Assembly (NCBI GenBank): GCA_040905865.1
Contig: JBBDQU010000070.1
Coordinates: forward strand, 1-64,000
DNA length: 64,000 nt
From: Alphaproteobacteria bacterium
Lineage (GTDB): Bacteria; Pseudomonadota; Alphaproteobacteria; UBA8366; GCA-2717185
Direction of reading: 5' to 3'
The position numbers and the translations under genes were made by a program. The notes under the pieces are model-generated. The model was not told the origin of the DNA. It did no database searches and was given only the letters and a program-made list of their open reading frames with translations. Positions 24,095 through 32,263 of the stretch are shown one piece after another (position 1 is the stretch's first letter; every line of letters starts with the position of its first letter).

Positions 24095-24730
24095 ATGCTT
24101 GACAGACTTCTCGTAGGCGCGGAGAAAGTGTCGCGGATTGCCGTCTGGATCGGCGGCGCGCTGCTGATTTTCGCTGCCGTCATGACAACGATCGACGTCA
24201 TCGTCCGGAAGATCTTCAACTGGTCGTTCGGTGGCGCGGATGAAATTGCGGGCTATATATTCGCCATTTCCACAGCGCTGGCATTCGCATTCGCGACATT
24301 GCAGCGAACCCATGTACGGATCGACGCGCTGTACCTGCAATTGCCGAAAGTCGTCCGGCCGTTTCTCGACATTCTGGGGTTCCTGCTCCTGGGCGGATTT
24401 CTGACGATCGTCACCGAACGCGCCTTTGCCGTCTGGCTGAACAGCTACGAAAGCGATTCGGTATCGATTACGCCGCTGGTGACGCCGCTGGCCATACCGC
24501 AAGGCTTCTGGCTGGTCGGTCTGGGCTTTTTCATGGTTGTTTTCGCCCTGATGCTGATTCGGCTGATCGTCGCGCTGTTTCAGCGGGACTGGCTGCGCAT
24601 TGCGCAGTTGGTCGGTCCGCGCGGGATCGAGGAAGAAGTCGCCGAGGAACGCGCCCATGCGCGCGCCGAAATAGAACGCGAACACGCACTCAACGAACGG
24701 GCCCGCCTGAAACGCGGCGAAGACGACTGA
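24095..24730 (+). CDS. dctQ: TRAP transporter small permease (DctQ-like)
   Basis: 211 residues with four membrane segments, the small integral subunit of a tripartite ATP-independent periplasmic transporter. TM1 is IAVWIGGALLIFAAVMTTIDVIV, then SFGGADEIAGYIFAISTALAFAFATLQRTHVRID, the DctQ core. ATG 24095 places the first membrane segment about 15 residues in, as usual; an ATG at 24053 is possible. The last about 45 residues are a charged helix (EEEVAEERAHARAEIERE) longer than typical. It is followed after one base by the large permease. No DctP binding protein is nearby. Confidence 0.88.
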   Translation: MLDRLLVGAEKVSRIAVWIGGALLIFAAVMTTIDVIVRKIFNWSFGGADEIAGYIFAISTALAFAFATLQRTHVRIDALYLQLPKVVRPFLDILGFLLLGGFLTIVTERAFAVWLNSYESDSVSITPLVTPLAIPQGFWLVGLGFFMVVFALMLIRLIVALFQRDWLRIAQLVGPRGIEEEVAEERAHARAEIEREHALNERARLKRGEDD

Positions 24731-24731
24731 C

Positions 24732-26015
24732 ATGCTGGCGTGGACCGGAGTAATACTTCTGTCGTTGCTGGCGCTGAGTGTGCCGGTCGCCGGCGCACTC
24801 GGCTGGCTGGGGCTCATCCTCGACAATTTCTATTCGCTGATGCCGCTTCACCTCGCGCTTGGCGAAGTCGTCTGGCAGAACGCCATCGAATACGTGCTGG
24901 TCGCCATCCCGCTATTCATCCTGCTGGGCGAAATCCTGCTGCGCGCGGGCATCGCCGAACGCATGTACGGCGCGATGGTGCAGTGGTTGTCGTGGCTGCC
25001 CGGCGGCACGATGCATTCGAATATCGGCTCCTGCGCCATCTTTGCGGCATCGTCCGGATCCAGCGTCGCCACGGCCGCCACGGTCGGCACCGTCGCCTAT
25101 CCGGAAATTGCCCGGCGCGGCTATAACGAACCGTTGTTCCTGGGCACGCTCGCCGCCGGCGGCACGCTTGGCATCCTGATTCCGCCATCGATAAACCTGA
25201 TCATATACGGGTTACTGACCGATACGTCCGTGCCGCAGCTCTATCTCGCCGGGTTTATTCCCGGCGTACTGCTTGCCAGCCTGTTCATGCTGACCATCCT
25301 GATCGCTGTCCTGATCAAGCCGAAATGGGGCGGCAGCCCGGTTGAAACGACTTGGGACATGCGCTGGGAATCGCTGCCGCACCTTCTGCCGCCGCTGGGC
25401 ATCTTCGTCGTCGTCGTCGGCTCGATCTATGCCGGCGTCGCGACCCCGACCGAAGCGGCGTCCGTCGGGGTGGTCGCCTCGATTATCCTCGCCGCCTGTT
25501 TCGGCGCACTGAACATAACCATGCTGCGCGAGGCTGTCGAAGGAACGTTGCGAACCACCGCAATGGTGATGCTGATTATCTTTGCGGCCCTGTTCCTCAA
25601 CTTTGTGCTGGCCGCCGTCGGCATGACCGGCAGGCTGATCGACCTGATCGACAACCTGGGCGTGACGCCGATGCAGACGCTTTGGGTCATCATCGCATTC
25701 TATATCGTTCTCGGCTGCTTCATGGAAACGCTGTCGATGCTGATCACGACAACCCCCCTGATTGCCCCGATCCTGATCGGGCTGGGCTTCGATCCGGTCT
25801 GGCTCGGCATCCTGGTGACTATCCTGCTGGAAACCGCGCTGATTACGCCGCCCGTCGGCGTCAATCTGTATATCGTGCATGGTGTCCGCGATGGGGGGGC
25901 AATGAACGATGTGATTGTCGGTACCCTGCCCTTTGTACTGACCATGTTCGTCATGATCGGCCTGCTCGTCCTGTTCCCTCAGGTTGCGCTTTTCCTGCCC
26001 CAGATGTTCTATTGA
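24732..26015 (+). CDS. dctM: TRAP transporter large permease (DctM-like)
   Basis: 427 residues, about 12 membrane segments, the sodium-driven transport subunit of TRAP systems. Family blocks include VAIPLFILLGEILLRAGIAERM, the repeat-entry NIGSCAIFAASSGSSVATAATVGTVAYPE region (begins NIGSCAIFAASSG) and GTLGILIPPSINLIIYG, matched in the second half by TPLIAPILIGLGFDP and ETALITPPVGVNLY. It pairs with the small permease one base upstream. The substrate should be a carboxylate by family habit; the CoA genes downstream agree. Confidence 0.93.
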   Translation: MLAWTGVILLSLLALSVPVAGALGWLGLILDNFYSLMPLHLALGEVVWQNAIEYVLVAIPLFILLGEILLRAGIAERMYGAMVQWLSWLPGGTMHSNIGSCAIFAASSGSSVATAATVGTVAYPEIARRGYNEPLFLGTLAAGGTLGILIPPSINLIIYGLLTDTSVPQLYLAGFIPGVLLASLFMLTILIAVLIKPKWGGSPVETTWDMRWESLPHLLPPLGIFVVVVGSIYAGVATPTEAASVGVVASIILAACFGALNITMLREAVEGTLRTTAMVMLIIFAALFLNFVLAAVGMTGRLIDLIDNLGVTPMQTLWVIIAFYIVLGCFMETLSMLITTTPLIAPILIGLGFDPVWLGILVTILLETALITPPVGVNLYIVHGVRDGGAMNDVIVGTLPFVLTMFVMIGLLVLFPQVALFLPQMFY

Positions 26016-26140
26016 CGGAATTGTTGCAGGGACATCCGATCAGAGTAAAGCCGTAAACCGGATTTTCAGATGACGCTGGCCCGCAACGTTCCAAAACCGC
26101 AGTGTTTTCAGTGCAGACAAAGGGAAGTACGCTTTTGACC

Positions 26141-26923
26141 ATGGATAAGATGCTCGCTGAAAAGGATGGCCCGGTCGGGCGCATGATTTTCAACAACCCC
26201 GCGCGCCACAACGCCGTTTCGGGCGACATGTGGGAAGCGGCGGCGGATATCCTGGAGGATTTCCAGAATGACAGCGCCATCCGCGTTGTCGTTGTCACCG
26301 GGGCCGGCGGCAAGGCCTTCATGTCCGGCGCCGATATTTCGAAATTCGAAGACGAACGCGCCAATGCCGAAGCGGAGGAAAAATACCACGCCAGGAACGA
26401 ACGGGCGCAGAAGCTGCTGCTGAACATGCCGAAGCCGACAATCGCCATGATTCGGGGTTACTGTATTGGCGGCGGGGTTGGCGCGGCCCTGAAATGCGAT
26501 ACGCGGATCAGTTCCGACAAATCCAGCTTCGCCATACCGGCAGGCCGGCTGGGCATCGGTTATGATTACGATGGCATTTCGCGACTGGTCGCGCATGTAG
26601 GGCCGTCCTTCGCCAAGGAGATATTCTTCACGGCACGCCAGTTCAACGCCCAGGAAGCCCTGGACATGAAGCTTATCGACCGGCTGGTGCCGGACAATAT
26701 CCTGGAAGATTACGTACGCGACTACGCGAAGACCATCGCCGCCAATGCGCCCATGACAATGCATGCCGTAAAACGAGCCGTCCTGGAGAATGCCAAGGAC
26801 CCGGATGACCGCAACATCCAACTCTGCGACAGCATGGTCGACATCTGCAACGCGAGCGAGGATTATGCGGAAGGACGACGCGCCTTCATGGAGAAGCGCA
26901 AACCCGTGTTTGTCGGGCGCTGA
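26141..26923 (+). CDS. Crotonase-fold (enoyl-CoA hydratase/isomerase family) protein lacking both catalytic glutamates
   Basis: 260 residues of the crotonase superfamily. The oxyanion-hole strands are AFMSGADISKFE and GYCIGGGVGAALKCDT. At the two positions where hydratases carry glutamate (GGGCE-like and PE-like), this protein has glycine in GGGVGAAL and alanine in FAIPAGRLGIG. It is thus unlikely to be a simple hydratase; an isomerase, decarboxylase, hydrolase or lyase role is more plausible. ATG 26141 is used, but a TTG at 26135 sits at better distance from AGGGAAG (26121). Co-directional with TRAP permeases upstream and a carboxyltransferase downstream. Confidence 0.88.
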   Translation: MDKMLAEKDGPVGRMIFNNPARHNAVSGDMWEAAADILEDFQNDSAIRVVVVTGAGGKAFMSGADISKFEDERANAEAEEKYHARNERAQKLLLNMPKPTIAMIRGYCIGGGVGAALKCDTRISSDKSSFAIPAGRLGIGYDYDGISRLVAHVGPSFAKEIFFTARQFNAQEALDMKLIDRLVPDNILEDYVRDYAKTIAANAPMTMHAVKRAVLENAKDPDDRNIQLCDSMVDICNASEDYAEGRRAFMEKRKPVFVGR

Positions 26924-26960
26924 ACATATATACCCTTTCAAGAACACGAAAAGCCGCGAC

Positions 26961-28511
26961 ATGGTAAACGAAGAATCCGGTATCGAAACCGGCATAGCCG
27001 AACTGGAAGAGCGCCGCCGCAAGGCTCTGGCGATGGGCGGCGGGAAGAAGCTGGAACGCCGCCGCAATGCGGGCGTTCTGAACGCACGGGAACGGGTCGC
27101 CTATATCGCCGATACGGACAGCTTCCTGGAAACCGGGCTGCTGGGCACGTCCGGCGTTTATCCCGAACAGCATGACGAAACCCCGACCGACGGCAAGATC
27201 ACCGGTTACGCCAAAATCGATGGCCGGGATGTCGCGCTGGTCGTGAACGACTTCACGGTCAAGGGCTCCTCGACCAGCGCCACCAACAGCAAGAAGGTCG
27301 GACAGGTCAAACGAATCGCGACCGAGCGCGGCATGCCCGCCGTCTTTATTGGCGAATCCACCGGCGCGCGCCTGCCGGACGCGATGGGATCGCGCGGCAT
27401 GGGCGCGCTGCTGGGCAACGACATCACCCAGTTCCAGCGCATGCGGGATACGCCCTGGGCGGCCGCGGCGCTGGGCTTTTCCTTCGGATCCTCCGCCTGG
27501 CTGGCCTGCTGTTCGGATTTCGCGGTCATGCGCAAGGGATCGACCATGTCGGTGTCCAGCCCGCGCCTCGTCAGCCGCGCCATCGGCGAGGAGGTCGACC
27601 TGGAGGAACTCGGCGGCTGGAAGCTGCATGCGGAGACCACCGGCCAGATCGACATGGTGGTCGATACCGACGAGGAGGCGCTGGACGCAATCCGCACGTT
27701 CCTCAGCTACCTGCCCAGCCACAACATGGAAGCGCCGCCGGTGCGCGACGTCACGCCGGGATCCGGCGAGGACATGGCCGACATCCATAAGGTCCTGCCG
27801 GCGAAGCGCACCCAGGTTTACAACATGCGCAAGATCCTCGACGCCGTATTCGACAAGGGAAGCCTGTTCGAAATGAAGCCGCGCTTCGGCCGCCCGGCGA
27901 TCACCGCGCTGGCCCGGCTGGACGGCAAGAGCGTGGGCGTCATTGCCAATAACCCGCAGCATCGCGGCGGCGCGCTGGATACCCAGTGCTGCGAGAAGAT
28001 CGTCGATTTCCTGGTGCTGTGCGATTCCTTCAACATCCCCATCGTGCAGCTTGTCGATACGCCGGGCTTTGCCATAGGCACCGAGGCGGAGCGCAGCCGC
28101 GCACCGGGCCGGATCATGAATTTCATGAACGCGATGACTCTGGTCACCGTACCGCGCATCGCCGTCATCCTGCGCAAGAGCTATGGCCGCGCCTATGTCT
28201 GCATGGGCGGCGGGCGGCATTCGGACACGCTGGCCGCCTGGCCCACCGGCGAGGTCAGCTTCATGGACCCGCGCTTCGCGACCATGATCGTGCACGGGCT
28301 GGAGGAAGGCATGGAAGGCTTCGAGGAAGCGTTCGCCCGGATCCAGAAAGATACGGAGATCTGGGACATGGCCGCAACCTACGCCGTCCACGATGTAATC
28401 AAGCCGTCTGAAACGCGCGAATTCCTGATCCGCATGCTCGATATCCACCGCCTGCGCATGACCAGCGGCGTCGGCAGGCACCTGATGCGCACCTGGCCGA
28501 CCAGCTACTAG
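26961..28511 (+). CDS. Acyl-CoA carboxylase carboxyltransferase subunit
   Basis: 516 residues of the biotin-dependent carboxyltransferase fold (AccD/PccB/MccB/MMDA type), with two crotonase-like halves. The first half has KVGQVKRIATERGMPAVFI and ESTGARLPDAMGSRGMG; the second has VGVIANNPQHRGGALDTQ, QLVDTPGFAIGTEAERSRAPG and CMGGGRHSD. The enzyme moves CO2 between biotin and an acyl-CoA in cytoplasmic or membrane complexes. No biotin carboxylase, biotin carrier or decarboxylase subunit lies in the window, so it may use partners elsewhere or serve as a CoA-ester decarboxylase component. ATG 26961 is 37 bases after the crotonase gene. Confidence 0.9.
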   Translation: MVNEESGIETGIAELEERRRKALAMGGGKKLERRRNAGVLNARERVAYIADTDSFLETGLLGTSGVYPEQHDETPTDGKITGYAKIDGRDVALVVNDFTVKGSSTSATNSKKVGQVKRIATERGMPAVFIGESTGARLPDAMGSRGMGALLGNDITQFQRMRDTPWAAAALGFSFGSSAWLACCSDFAVMRKGSTMSVSSPRLVSRAIGEEVDLEELGGWKLHAETTGQIDMVVDTDEEALDAIRTFLSYLPSHNMEAPPVRDVTPGSGEDMADIHKVLPAKRTQVYNMRKILDAVFDKGSLFEMKPRFGRPAITALARLDGKSVGVIANNPQHRGGALDTQCCEKIVDFLVLCDSFNIPIVQLVDTPGFAIGTEAERSRAPGRIMNFMNAMTLVTVPRIAVILRKSYGRAYVCMGGGRHSDTLAAWPTGEVSFMDPRFATMIVHGLEEGMEGFEEAFARIQKDTEIWDMAATYAVHDVIKPSETREFLIRMLDIHRLRMTSGVGRHLMRTWPTSY

Positions 28512-28520
28512 AACGGAACC

Positions 28521-30680
28521 ATGAACACCAAAGCACTATTTGCCGAAGCCCGCACCGCGGGGCGTGAGGCGCTTGACGAAGCCGCCGGGAAAACCCTTCT
28601 GGCGCAATACGGTATCGCCACGCCGAAATCCGTTATCGTGACAGGTCCGGAGGATGCTGCGACAGCCTTTACCGGATTGACCGCGCCTGTCGTCGTCAAG
28701 GTCATGTCGCCGGACCTGCTGCACAAGAGCGATGCCGGCGGCGTCGCCATCGGCTTGGACAACGCCGAGGCCGTTGCCGAAGCAATCATGACCATGCGGA
28801 AATCCCCCGCGATTTCCGGGTGCCAGATCGACGGATTCCTGATGGAGGAAATGGCTCCCGATGGCCAGGAAGTGGTGATCGGCGGCGTCTACGCCCCGCA
28901 ATTCGGACCGATGATCATGGTCGGCCTGGGCGGTATCTTCGTCGAGGTCATGGGCGATGTCGCCTTTCGCCTGTGCCCGATATCCGAATCCGATGCCTGG
29001 GCCATGTTGCGCGAATTAAAGGGCGCGCCGCTGCTGGTTGGCGCGCGTGGCCGTAAACCGGTTTCCGAACAGGCCATTATCGACGCACTGATGCAAATCG
29101 GCGGACCAGGCGGTCTGTTGCTCGACAACGCGGACGAAATTGACGAACTGGATATCAACCCGATCATCGTTTCGCCGAAAGGCGCTGTCGCCGTGGACGC
29201 CCGCGTCATTCTGGCGCCGAAGGAATCGCGGCCGGAACATCCCGAACCTGTCCCGGCCGATTTCGGCCCGCTTTTCGAACCGAAAGCCGTTGCCGTGCTG
29301 GGGGCGTCCGCCGAACGCTTCGCGGTCGGCAATAACTGCATCGCCCGGTTGCGCGAAAGCGGCTTCGAAGGCGACATTTACCCGATCCATCCAACCGCGG
29401 ATGAAATTGACGGGTTGCCGGTCTATCGTTCGCTCGGTGAGACGCCCAACCCCATAGATTATGCCTTCATCGCGGTCGGCGCCGCCCGAGTCCCCGATAT
29501 GCTGCGCGCCGCAAAAGGCCGGCTGAAATTCGCGCAGGTCATTTCGGCGGGCTTCGGCGAGGTCAGTGACGGTATCGACCTGCAGCGCGACCTCGTCGCC
29601 GCCGCCCGCGAAGGCGGCTGCCGGGTTATCGGACCGAACTGTCTGGGTCTCTATTCTCCGCGCGGCCGCGTTACCTTCGCCAAGGGTTCTTCGATGGAGC
29701 CGGGCAGCGTCGGCGTCATCTCGCAGAGCGGCGGTCTTGGTACCGACATCGTCCGGCGCGGGTTGCTGCGCGGAGTCAGGTTCAGTGGCCTTGTCACCGT
29801 CGGCAACAGCGCCGATCTCGGCCCGAACGACCTGCTGGAATTCTACCTGTCCGATCCGAACACCAAAGTGCTCGGCTTGTACCTGGAGGACGCCAAGGAC
29901 GGCGGCCGCTTCGCAAATATCCTTCGAGCCGCGAAAGCCGTGAAACCGGTCGTGATCCTGAAAGGGGGACGAACCCGCGCCGGGCAGGCCGCTGCCGCAT
30001 CGCACACAGGATCCCTGGCCGGCGACGACCGGGTCTGGACGGCCCTGGAGAAGCAGACGGGATGCGTGCTGGTCGATAACCTGGACGATTTCGTCGAAGC
30101 CCTGCTGGCCTTCCAGATGCTGACCCCGAATCCGGGCCGGCCGACAAAACGGATTGTCATGTTCGGCAATGGCGGCGGCACCAGCGTGCTGGCGACCGAC
30201 TATTTTACACGACTGGGTCTGGACATTGATCCGCTCAGCGTCAGGGCGCAGGATGCGCTGAATGCGCTGGGCCTGCCGCCAGGAACCAGTGTCGTTAACC
30301 CGATCGATACGCCGGTCGGAACCCTGCAGACCGAGCAAGGAAAGATCGCTGAAAAAATACTCGACGCGGTTTATGCGACCGACGAGGCCGATGCGGTGGT
30401 TATGCATCTGAACCTGGCTGCATTTATCGGCCGTAGCACGGTCGATCCCTTGGAGAACCTGATGCAGGCGGCGCTGCGGGTTCAGGCGCAGTATCCCGGC
30501 CAGTCACATTTCATCCTGGTGCTGCGTTCGGACGGCGGTGAAGACATCGATAATGCCAAGCGCGGTTACCGCGCGCGGGCGCTGGAAGTCGGAATACCGG
30601 TCTATGATGAACTCGCCAACGCGGCCCGGGTATTGACCGCCTTGCGGAAATTCGAGCGCTTCCGGCATGACCTCGAATAA
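28521..30680 (+). CDS. NDP-forming acyl-CoA synthetase, beta-alpha fused
   Basis: 719 residues. The N-terminal 225 form an ATP-grasp domain (beta-like: KTLLAQYGIATPKS, PVVVKVMSPDLLHKSDAGGVA). After a linker come a CoA-binding domain (FEPKAVAVLGASAERFAVGNN, from about residue 250) and the succinyl-CoA-ligase-like domains, with the phospho-acceptor histidine expected in AASHTGSLAGDD. This is the acetyl/acyl-CoA synthetase (ADP-forming) superfamily in the order beta-alpha, the reverse of the more familiar alpha-beta fusions. It activates a carboxylic acid, or makes ATP from an acyl-CoA, reversibly. Nine bases after the carboxyltransferase gene, so co-translated. Confidence 0.92.
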   Translation: MNTKALFAEARTAGREALDEAAGKTLLAQYGIATPKSVIVTGPEDAATAFTGLTAPVVVKVMSPDLLHKSDAGGVAIGLDNAEAVAEAIMTMRKSPAISGCQIDGFLMEEMAPDGQEVVIGGVYAPQFGPMIMVGLGGIFVEVMGDVAFRLCPISESDAWAMLRELKGAPLLVGARGRKPVSEQAIIDALMQIGGPGGLLLDNADEIDELDINPIIVSPKGAVAVDARVILAPKESRPEHPEPVPADFGPLFEPKAVAVLGASAERFAVGNNCIARLRESGFEGDIYPIHPTADEIDGLPVYRSLGETPNPIDYAFIAVGAARVPDMLRAAKGRLKFAQVISAGFGEVSDGIDLQRDLVAAAREGGCRVIGPNCLGLYSPRGRVTFAKGSSMEPGSVGVISQSGGLGTDIVRRGLLRGVRFSGLVTVGNSADLGPNDLLEFYLSDPNTKVLGLYLEDAKDGGRFANILRAAKAVKPVVILKGGRTRAGQAAAASHTGSLAGDDRVWTALEKQTGCVLVDNLDDFVEALLAFQMLTPNPGRPTKRIVMFGNGGGTSVLATDYFTRLGLDIDPLSVRAQDALNALGLPPGTSVVNPIDTPVGTLQTEQGKIAEKILDAVYATDEADAVVMHLNLAAFIGRSTVDPLENLMQAALRVQAQYPGQSHFILVLRSDGGEDIDNAKRGYRARALEVGIPVYDELANAARVLTALRKFERFRHDLE

Positions 30681-30763
30681 CAGGCACAATGGCGCCGCGT
30701 CGAACAGGGGGGACGAAAGACAGGAGCCTGCACGTATTCCGTTTCAAATTGACTGTCCTTTCA

Positions 30764-30792
30764 TTCCCAAAGTAGAAGAAATCCAGTATACT
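30764..30792 (+). promoter_or_regulatory. Possible sigma-70 promoter of the CinA-like gene
   Basis: TTCCCA (30764-30769) and TATACT (30787-30792) are 17 bases apart in an A/T-rich 156-base gap, giving a transcript start about 40 bases before the CinA-like ATG. The -35 match is partial. Confidence 0.4.
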
Positions 30793-30836
30793 GAAATCTT
30801 TCTTATTTTCACTATCGCACCATTGGAAGAACAATC

Positions 30837-31322
30837 ATGTCGGAATTGAGCGAATTGGCGAACCGGGTCGGAGCCGGGTTGAAGCAGCGTAACGAAACGG
30901 TGGCAATCGCGGAATCATCGTCCGGCGGTCTTGTCGCGGCAGCGCTTCTGGCCGTTCCGGGCGCTTCGGTCTATTTCATGGGCGGCGTCGTTGTCTACAC
31001 GCGCGATGCCAAGATCAGACTTCTGGGTGTTCCGGAAAAGACCCTCGATGAAATCCGGTCCGCTTCGGAACCGCATGCCATGATGCTGGCGCGAACGGTC
31101 CGTGAAAAGATGGGCACGACCTGGGGTATCGCGGAAACCGGCGCCGCCGGGCCGACCGGAAATCGTTACGGCGACGATGCCGGACATGTCTGCGTCGCTG
31201 TTTCAGGCCCGGTCGATATTGTTACGACCATTGAAACGGGAAAATCGGACCGCGAACCGAATATGCACGCCTTTGCCGCCGCAGCCTTAACCCTTGCTGA
31301 TACGACGATGAACAGGGCATGA
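30837..31322 (+). CDS. CinA C-terminal domain (PncC-like) protein
   Basis: 161 residues, the stand-alone nicotinamide-nucleotide amidase fold that deamidates NMN during pyridine-nucleotide salvage. The nucleophile region is AIAESSSGGLVAAALL, where the family usually reads ESCTGGL; the serine is kept but cysteine and threonine are both serine. VVVYTRDAKIRLLGV supplies the conserved tyrosine and lysine, and GIAETGAAGPTGN the C-terminal loop. The variation may mean altered specificity. The ATG has GGAAG seven bases upstream. It seems to have its own promoter and is followed by a terminator. Confidence 0.82.
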   Translation: MSELSELANRVGAGLKQRNETVAIAESSSGGLVAAALLAVPGASVYFMGGVVVYTRDAKIRLLGVPEKTLDEIRSASEPHAMMLARTVREKMGTTWGIAETGAAGPTGNRYGDDAGHVCVAVSGPVDIVTTIETGKSDREPNMHAFAAAALTLADTTMNRA

Positions 31323-31354: not shown

Positions 31355-31379
31355 TTTAAGCCCGCTTGACGGGCTTAAA
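31355..31379 (+). terminator. Bidirectional intrinsic terminator
   Basis: A perfect 10-base stem (TTTAAGCCCG / CGGGCTTAAA) with a five-base loop, flanked by A and T at the base so that it could work in either direction. It lies 32 bases after the CinA-like stop and closes the TRAP/CoA region. Confidence 0.8.
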
Positions 31380-31450: not shown

Positions 31451-32263
31451 ATGAGTAGAAAATTCTGTCACGGGCTGGTCTGGCTTACCGTCGCGTATTC
31501 AGTGTCAGGGCAGGAAATTGAAAATCTGACGTTTTTTCCGATGGCGCATGCGACATTGATGATCGTTTCGGGCAGCGCCCTGGAGGGACAGGTCCGCTTT
31601 CCTGCCGTCCCGATTCTAGAACGCTATACATTCAGACCACAGGAAAATCCCGATACCCTTGGCCGCTTTGACTTCAGCGACAGCCGGCCCGGAACAGCAT
31701 TCGTTTCGGACAATCCCCGAATCGGAGTCGGCGACATGGTGCTTGGCGGACCGGACCTGATTGAACTGGTCGCAGGTAGCAATGCAAACGGAATTGCGAA
31801 CGTGGATTCCGATTTCAATATCGATCCCGTAACATTAACCGACAGGCAAAATCTCTGGTCGGACATTGCCTTTACACTGGAAATCGACGAACTGCTTGAT
31901 TTTTCCGCCACGGCCGTTGCCGGCTTTATTCCGGAAATCCGCTTCTGGCTGGAAGGCAATCGATGGGGCAATTTCGGTTCATCACTGAATGAATTTCAAG
32001 TCGTCGGCGGCTTTAAATATGGCAGTGTAATAAATAACGGCACCCTTCCGGACCAGGTATTGCTGCATTCCAACCTGTCGGGTAATTCGACAGAAAGGGG
32101 CGCGTCCGGCACCAGCGCCCAAACTGAAGCGCGAAGCCGGTCCCTGTCAGAATTTGCTTCAGACATTTTTTTCAAATTGATTCGGCTTCCGATCACTTAT
32201 GTAATTCTGTTTACCGGCCTCACGATCCTGGCGATCAATTTGAACCGGCAGCCGCGAACCTGA
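31451..32263 (+). CDS. Hypothetical protein with C-terminal membrane anchor
   Basis: 270 residues; I recognise no family. A short hydrophobic start (GLVWLTVAYSVSG) could be a signal sequence. The middle is acidic and aspartate/asparagine-rich with alternating hydrophobic strands (FDFSDSRPGTAFVSDN, NIDPVTLTDRQNLW, EIRFWLEGNRWGNFG), suggesting a beta-rich extracytoplasmic domain. A membrane segment (ITYVILFTGLTILAINL) closes the protein, followed by a basic tail. The DNA is clearly richer in A/T than the neighbours. No good ribosome-binding site precedes the ATG, and internal ATGs at 31541 and 31559 are alternatives. A GT4 glycosyltransferase gene begins 17 bases later, hinting at a surface-glycan role. 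Confidence 0.6.
   Translation: MSRKFCHGLVWLTVAYSVSGQEIENLTFFPMAHATLMIVSGSALEGQVRFPAVPILERYTFRPQENPDTLGRFDFSDSRPGTAFVSDNPRIGVGDMVLGGPDLIELVAGSNANGIANVDSDFNIDPVTLTDRQNLWSDIAFTLEIDELLDFSATAVAGFIPEIRFWLEGNRWGNFGSSLNEFQVVGGFKYGSVINNGTLPDQVLLHSNLSGNSTERGASGTSAQTEARSRSLSEFASDIFFKLIRLPITYVILFTGLTILAINLNRQPRT

Follow-up and report, generated by a model that had tools for sequence, protein, structure and literature searches.

A family-conserved TRAP transporter and acyl-CoA operon of an alphaproteobacterium: possibly a worn, scattered variant of the multi-subunit acyl-CoA carboxylase pathway

Introduction

In the genome assembly GCA_040905865.1 of an Alphaproteobacteria bacterium, a TRAP permease pair is followed by genes for a crotonase-fold protein, an acyl-CoA carboxyltransferase (CT), an acyl-CoA ligase and a CinA-like protein. 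The locus raises the question of what a CT may do in an operon that encodes neither a biotin carboxylase (BC) nor a biotin carrier (BCCP). Uptake of a carboxylate followed by CoA activation by the ligase, as the original prediction proposed, remains the simplest reading of the set; paper searches on combinations of these families returned nothing on this set. Here, the window, i.e. the whole stretch of 64,000 nucleotides from contig JBBDQU010000070.1, is compared with related loci. The best explanation is an ancestral alphaproteobacterial operon comprising DctP-Q-M, the CoA-transferase CaiB, crotonase, CT and ligase, of which the window would carry a worn, scattered member.

Gene content and conservation of the locus

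Six co-directional genes occupy positions 24095-31322 and were assigned by Pfam (Table 1). The spacing is tight between DctQ and DctM (1 bp), crotonase and CT (31 bp) and CT and ligase (9 bp), and loose between DctM and crotonase (125 bp) and ligase and CinA (156 bp). No DctP, BC or BCCP gene was found within this interval, and the TRAP Q and M subunits are thus present at the locus without a P protein, as had been noted. The domain order of the ligase (ATP-grasp_5, CoA_binding_2, Succ_CoA_lig) bears out its assignment as an NDP-forming enzyme of beta-alpha order; the catalytic-type histidine of the SHTG phospho-His motif is present. The start of the crotonase, initially placed at GTG 26102, was corrected to an ATG.

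Table 1. Features of the operon and its borders in window coordinates
Feature	Position	Strand	Basis
TRAP small permease subunit (DctQ)	24095..24730	+	PF04290 E=1.7e-19
TRAP large permease subunit (DctM)	24732..26015	+	PF06808 E=1.8e-81; TIGR00786 above cut-off
CaiB deletion scar: leader and start codon ATG 26070, then relic of 3' end	26056..26140	+	DNA alignment with L031
Crotonase-fold protein, NCBIfam subfamily PRK06127 (start ATG 26141)	26141..26923	+	PF00378; NF004781 359.8 bits, cut-off 291
Acyl-CoA carboxyltransferase, "type A", RKSYGRAY motif	26955..28511	+	PF01039; family alignment; tree
NDP-forming acyl-CoA ligase, beta-alpha order	28521..30680	+	PF13549+PF13380+PF13607
CinA C-terminal-like protein (PncC family), loosely linked	30837..31322	+	PF02464
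Hairpin without T tract	31355..31379	.	sequence

The downstream border is less sharp than proposed. The CinA-like gene exists but is weakly linked: apart from its distance to the ligase, it occurs in only some relatives (L031, L034 and L035) and is absent in L032, L033 and L036. The hairpin, which had been taken for a terminator bounding the set, has a 10-bp stem (TTTAAGCCCG-CTTGA-CGGGCTTAAA) but no T tract and is not listed by the terminator scan. Beyond it, at 31451-32263, a 270-aa protein is predicted, without a match in Pfam or NCBIfam; a protein 36% identical to it is encoded at the same place in L031.

Relatives of the CT were collected from a scan of genome contigs (80 loci), and more were added by whole-genome searches. 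In the window's own family (f1), the gene order is (DctP)-Q-M-CaiB-(crotonase)-CT-ligase-(CinA), brackets marking variable genes, and the linkage is retained at L031-L036 and L135. Retention of the neighbourhood within one bacterial family passes the refutation test of the original prediction and shows that the genes are no chance cluster. The genes compared with L031 have dN/dS values of 0.05-0.16; DctQ is 87-89% and DctM 93% identical to its counterpart there, the latter at a dN/dS of 0.06. In Alphaproteobacteria outside the family, CT and ligase stay together and TRAP genes are absent. Further genes seen in the family are absent at the window locus: HyuA (in L031 also HyuB), which in L031, L032 and L033 is encoded ahead of the TRAP genes in the opposite direction, and an MlrC-family gene downstream in L033. 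The operon is real and family-conserved, and it is predicted to take up and CoA-activate a small acid.

Genes missing from the operon

Comparison with relatives uncovers two genes that the original gene set had overlooked, namely the DctP of relatives and a deleted CoA-transferase. DctP genes precede Q in L032, L033 and L035, and DctP is missing from the operon in both the window and L031. The search for a DctP partner succeeded in the operons of relatives, whereas in the window's genome the closest candidate is found alone on another contig, C35. This copy is 58% identical to the L032 DctP, and the others of the 12 DctP genes in the genome reach at most 31%. It has no Q or M directly adjacent, the nearest DctM being ~8 kb off and having its own DctP. 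The C35 protein is, by inference, the best candidate for the missing TRAP partner.

The second gene is that of a class III CoA-transferase, CaiB. L031, the CT of which is 95% identical to that of the window, has an intact 397-aa CaiB gene (PF02515 match) at the position of the gap before the crotonase. In the DNA alignment with L031, the leader and the start codon of CaiB are still present in the window at about 26056-26072; sequence like the end of CaiB comes next, and then the crotonase. Judged from this alignment, the 125-bp gap is the scar of an internal CaiB deletion of about 1.2 kb. CaiB lies between TRAP-M and crotonase in relatives, the window being the exception without CaiB in its family. 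Since most loci with at least 46% identity have CaiB immediately before the crotonase, the two form a conserved pair, which is broken in the window. The window genome (G000) shows a large expansion of both families, with 40 class III CoA-transferase and 37 crotonase matches, and two further CaiB-crotonase pairs reside on C51 and C36. The genome's own CaiB copies were rejected as the displaced operon gene: the best is 69% identical, versus 88-95% for the neighbouring genes.

The crotonase

The label "enoyl-CoA hydratase" of PRK06127 is a name only. As originally noted, both hydratase glutamates are missing: the segments GGG-V-G and P-A align with the E144 and E164 positions and carry Gly and Ala there, so that the catalytic Glu pair of enoyl-CoA hydratases is lacking and a hydratase function is unlikely. 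In an alignment with E. coli methylmalonyl-CoA decarboxylase (MMCD, ScpB) and 14 relatives, residue 141 of the crotonase, a conserved Tyr, falls on Tyr140 of ScpB; this Tyr and the Ala at the E164 position are invariant among 15 aligned family members. The oxyanion glycines and a C-terminal EKRKPxFVG motif are also common to both proteins. MMCD is, by overall sequence or fold, neither the nearest relative nor the nearest solved relative of the crotonase. AlphaFold and Foldseek recover the general fold only, with 4olq and 4k2n, both uncharacterised, as best matches and low confidence in the active-site loop.

The crotonase may be an MMCD-like enzyme, with CaiB as its usual partner. In E. coli, the Sbm operon (ScpB and the CoA transferase ScpC) likewise pairs a crotonase lacking the glutamates with a CoA transferase, and by this analogy a decarboxylation coupled to CoA transfer is plausible. 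The operons differ in that the transferase is class III here, not class I, that no mutase is encoded, and that the crotonase scores 155.8 bits against the MMCD equivalog NF008506, below its cut-off of 257. A swap of the window crotonase from a paralogue was rejected on the basis of its identities to L034 (73%) and L031 (74%); as L031 and L034 are only 60% identical to each other, the L031 crotonase is the fast-evolving one.

The carboxyltransferase family and its biotin carrier

The CT domain spans the full length of the protein, which matches PF01039 and PccB-type structures; as in the propionyl-CoA carboxylase beta subunit and its relatives, the CT fold aligns over the full length to PccB and related CTs. 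Its relatives at 49-100% identity are referred to here as type A; a second CT, type B, is ~33% identical to type A. A count over 104 type-A CT loci, with some duplicates and truncated contigs among them, gives within 4.5 kb of the CT a ligase in 63, BC in 57, a stand-alone 73-residue carrier or mini-BCCP in 44, a second CT in 37 and CaiB in 26. In Betaproteobacteria, type-A CT sits with BC, the 73-residue carrier, a ligase and often type-B CT, and its clade also adjoins BC and this carrier in an Acetobacteraceae MAG and on a Sulfitobacter plasmid. The latter encodes a CT-ligase pair with BCCP, BC and BioY ~4 kb away, and its CT shares the RKxYGRAY motif; on C. necator pBB2, the order is CaiB-BCCP-CT-B-MaoC-Bug-CT-A-BC. 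What looks like a fusion of the CT and BC genes in L098 was put down to a run of N and dismissed.

In the tree, the window CT belongs to a ligase-linked clade (49 rows, SH-aLRT 100) with two halves: most loci of the alpha half have the CT-ligase pair by itself, and most of the beta half have BC as well. Among the alpha loci, CT, ligase, BCCP and BC follow one another in L092, and in L141 and L142 the CT-ligase pair is adjoined by BCCP, crotonase and CaiB. The claim that the CT has no carrier holds locally but fails genome-wide, because a 73-residue mini-BCCP with an ESMKM biotin motif, 50-58% identical to CT-linked carriers, is encoded on contig C58. Across 59 genomes, type-A CT and mini-BCCP are both present in 22, CT only in 3, the carrier only in 5 and neither in 29 (Fisher 2e-8, from counts that are not phylogenetically independent); the direction is the same within f3 and f4 alone. 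Together, the C58 gene and this co-occurrence indicate that a carrier is available in the window genome. Next to the C58 gene are a different ligase and beta-oxidation genes, for which reason it may serve another CT; service to the window CT would have to be in trans. No dedicated BC was found in the window genome, which has three generic BCs, 45-47% identical to the CT-linked BC.

Proposed pathway and alternatives

The missing binding protein and biotin carrier are mostly parts that lie elsewhere or were deleted, which points to a worn variant of the known carboxylase kind. We lean towards a multi-subunit acyl-CoA carboxylase pathway in a variant that is scattered over the genome and partly decayed, with the TRAP transporter and the CoA ligase feeding it, as the somewhat more probable reading of these sequences. 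It could operate in the following manner: A small carboxylate would enter via the TRAP permease, helped by a binding protein from another locus, and be turned into its CoA thioester by the ADP-forming ligase (in relatives by CaiB as well). The type-A CT may serve as beta subunit in a biotin-dependent acyl-CoA carboxylase of several subunits, with the 73-residue carrier supplied by another locus and BC activity by a general enzyme; it would then carboxylate the acyl-CoA or catalyse the reverse reaction. The crotonase, which is probably not a hydratase any more and is normally paired with CaiB, may carry out an enolate-type reaction, of which decarboxylation of a malonyl-CoA-type ester is the most likely.

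Close to the original idea is a biotin-free decarboxylation, in which the ligase or CaiB activates a dicarboxylate and crotonase and CT decarboxylate it in the manner of MMCD and malonate decarboxylase MdcD-MdcE, respectively. CT-type folds can decarboxylate without biotin, as MdcD-MdcE does (PMC5534430), and the window CT, having such a fold, might do likewise; the crotonase without both glutamates retains the MMCD tyrosine, the operon has no BC or carrier, and in G005, a genome 92% complete, the CT operon is kept and no mini-BCCP was found. In the biotin-side loop of the CT, "YG" is followed by Arg instead of Gly, which would favour this reading, but this Arg was rejected as proof of biotin independence because homologues adjoining BC and BCCP have the same motif; other types have Gln or Met there. 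The window CT also scores 35 bits against malonate-decarboxylase cut-offs of 228-278, and no MdcA/MdcC set is present at the locus. With its clade linked to BC and mini-BCCP and that mini-BCCP present in the genome, a CT working without biotin parts has lost ground, and we consider it rather unlikely.

Less credible is a transcarboxylase, in which type-A CT, a type-B CT and the mini-BCCP transfer the carboxyl group of one CoA ester to another with no need for BC. Type-A CT, carrier and type-B CT adjoin, several times without BC nearby (L101, L103, L087, L094, L151), with the two CTs flanking the carrier in related genomes, and the window genome has both CT types (type B on C11 and C60) and the carrier, although on separate contigs. 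Many relatives, however, have BC in the same cluster, and near the alphaproteobacterial members of the window's CT clade a type-B CT is usually missing. Equally improbable, a decaying remnant that is no longer a working pathway after the loss of CaiB and DctP would fit these losses, that of DctP also seen in L031, as well as the L031 ligase (L031:9400-11724), which is split over two frames at ~residue 177, and the L031 crotonase, which diverges fastest, but Q, M, CT and crotonase have intact frames and low dN/dS, the paralogues on C51 and C36 could substitute for CaiB and crotonase, and the split ligase may reflect an assembly error as well as decay.

Side-by-side type-A CT, 73-residue carrier and type-B CT occur at L101, L103, L087, L094, L150, L151 and L182, several of them without BC nearby, and might constitute an unnamed hetero-carboxyltransferase. 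On C11 of the window genome, HyuA, HyuB and a crotonase gene follow one another next to a divergent type-B CT gene (L174:4502-10698). It is a long shot that type-A and type-B CTs, the stand-alone carrier and the class III CoA-transferase belong together in an unnamed but widespread system that transcarboxylates or decarboxylates without BC, with a scattered version in the window genome.

Relation to known systems and significance

The preferred carboxylase reading likens the window CT to multi-subunit biotin-dependent acyl-CoA carboxylases, as its homologues cluster with BC and BCCP genes. Differences from these enzymes are (i) the stand-alone 73-aa carrier and frequent second CT type of the type-A family, (ii) the non-Gly residue in its YG-x-A loop and (iii) the location of the window carrier on another contig together with the missing dedicated BC. 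The nearest solved relative of the ligase is the ADP-forming 3-hydroxypropionate-CoA ligase (PDB 9y43), which shares the beta-alpha order; the window ligase reaches 409 bits where the family cut-off is 1300, and the substrate is not implied by this kinship.

When the carrier sits elsewhere, an operon considered in isolation can give the impression of a biotin-free enzyme. The comparison joins a common, uncharacterised set, i.e. ligase, CaiB, glutamate-less crotonase, type-A and type-B CT and the 73-residue carrier, as one testable enzyme system. Identifying its substrate would give function to many genes so far annotated only as "carboxyl transferase domain protein" or "acetate-CoA ligase family protein".
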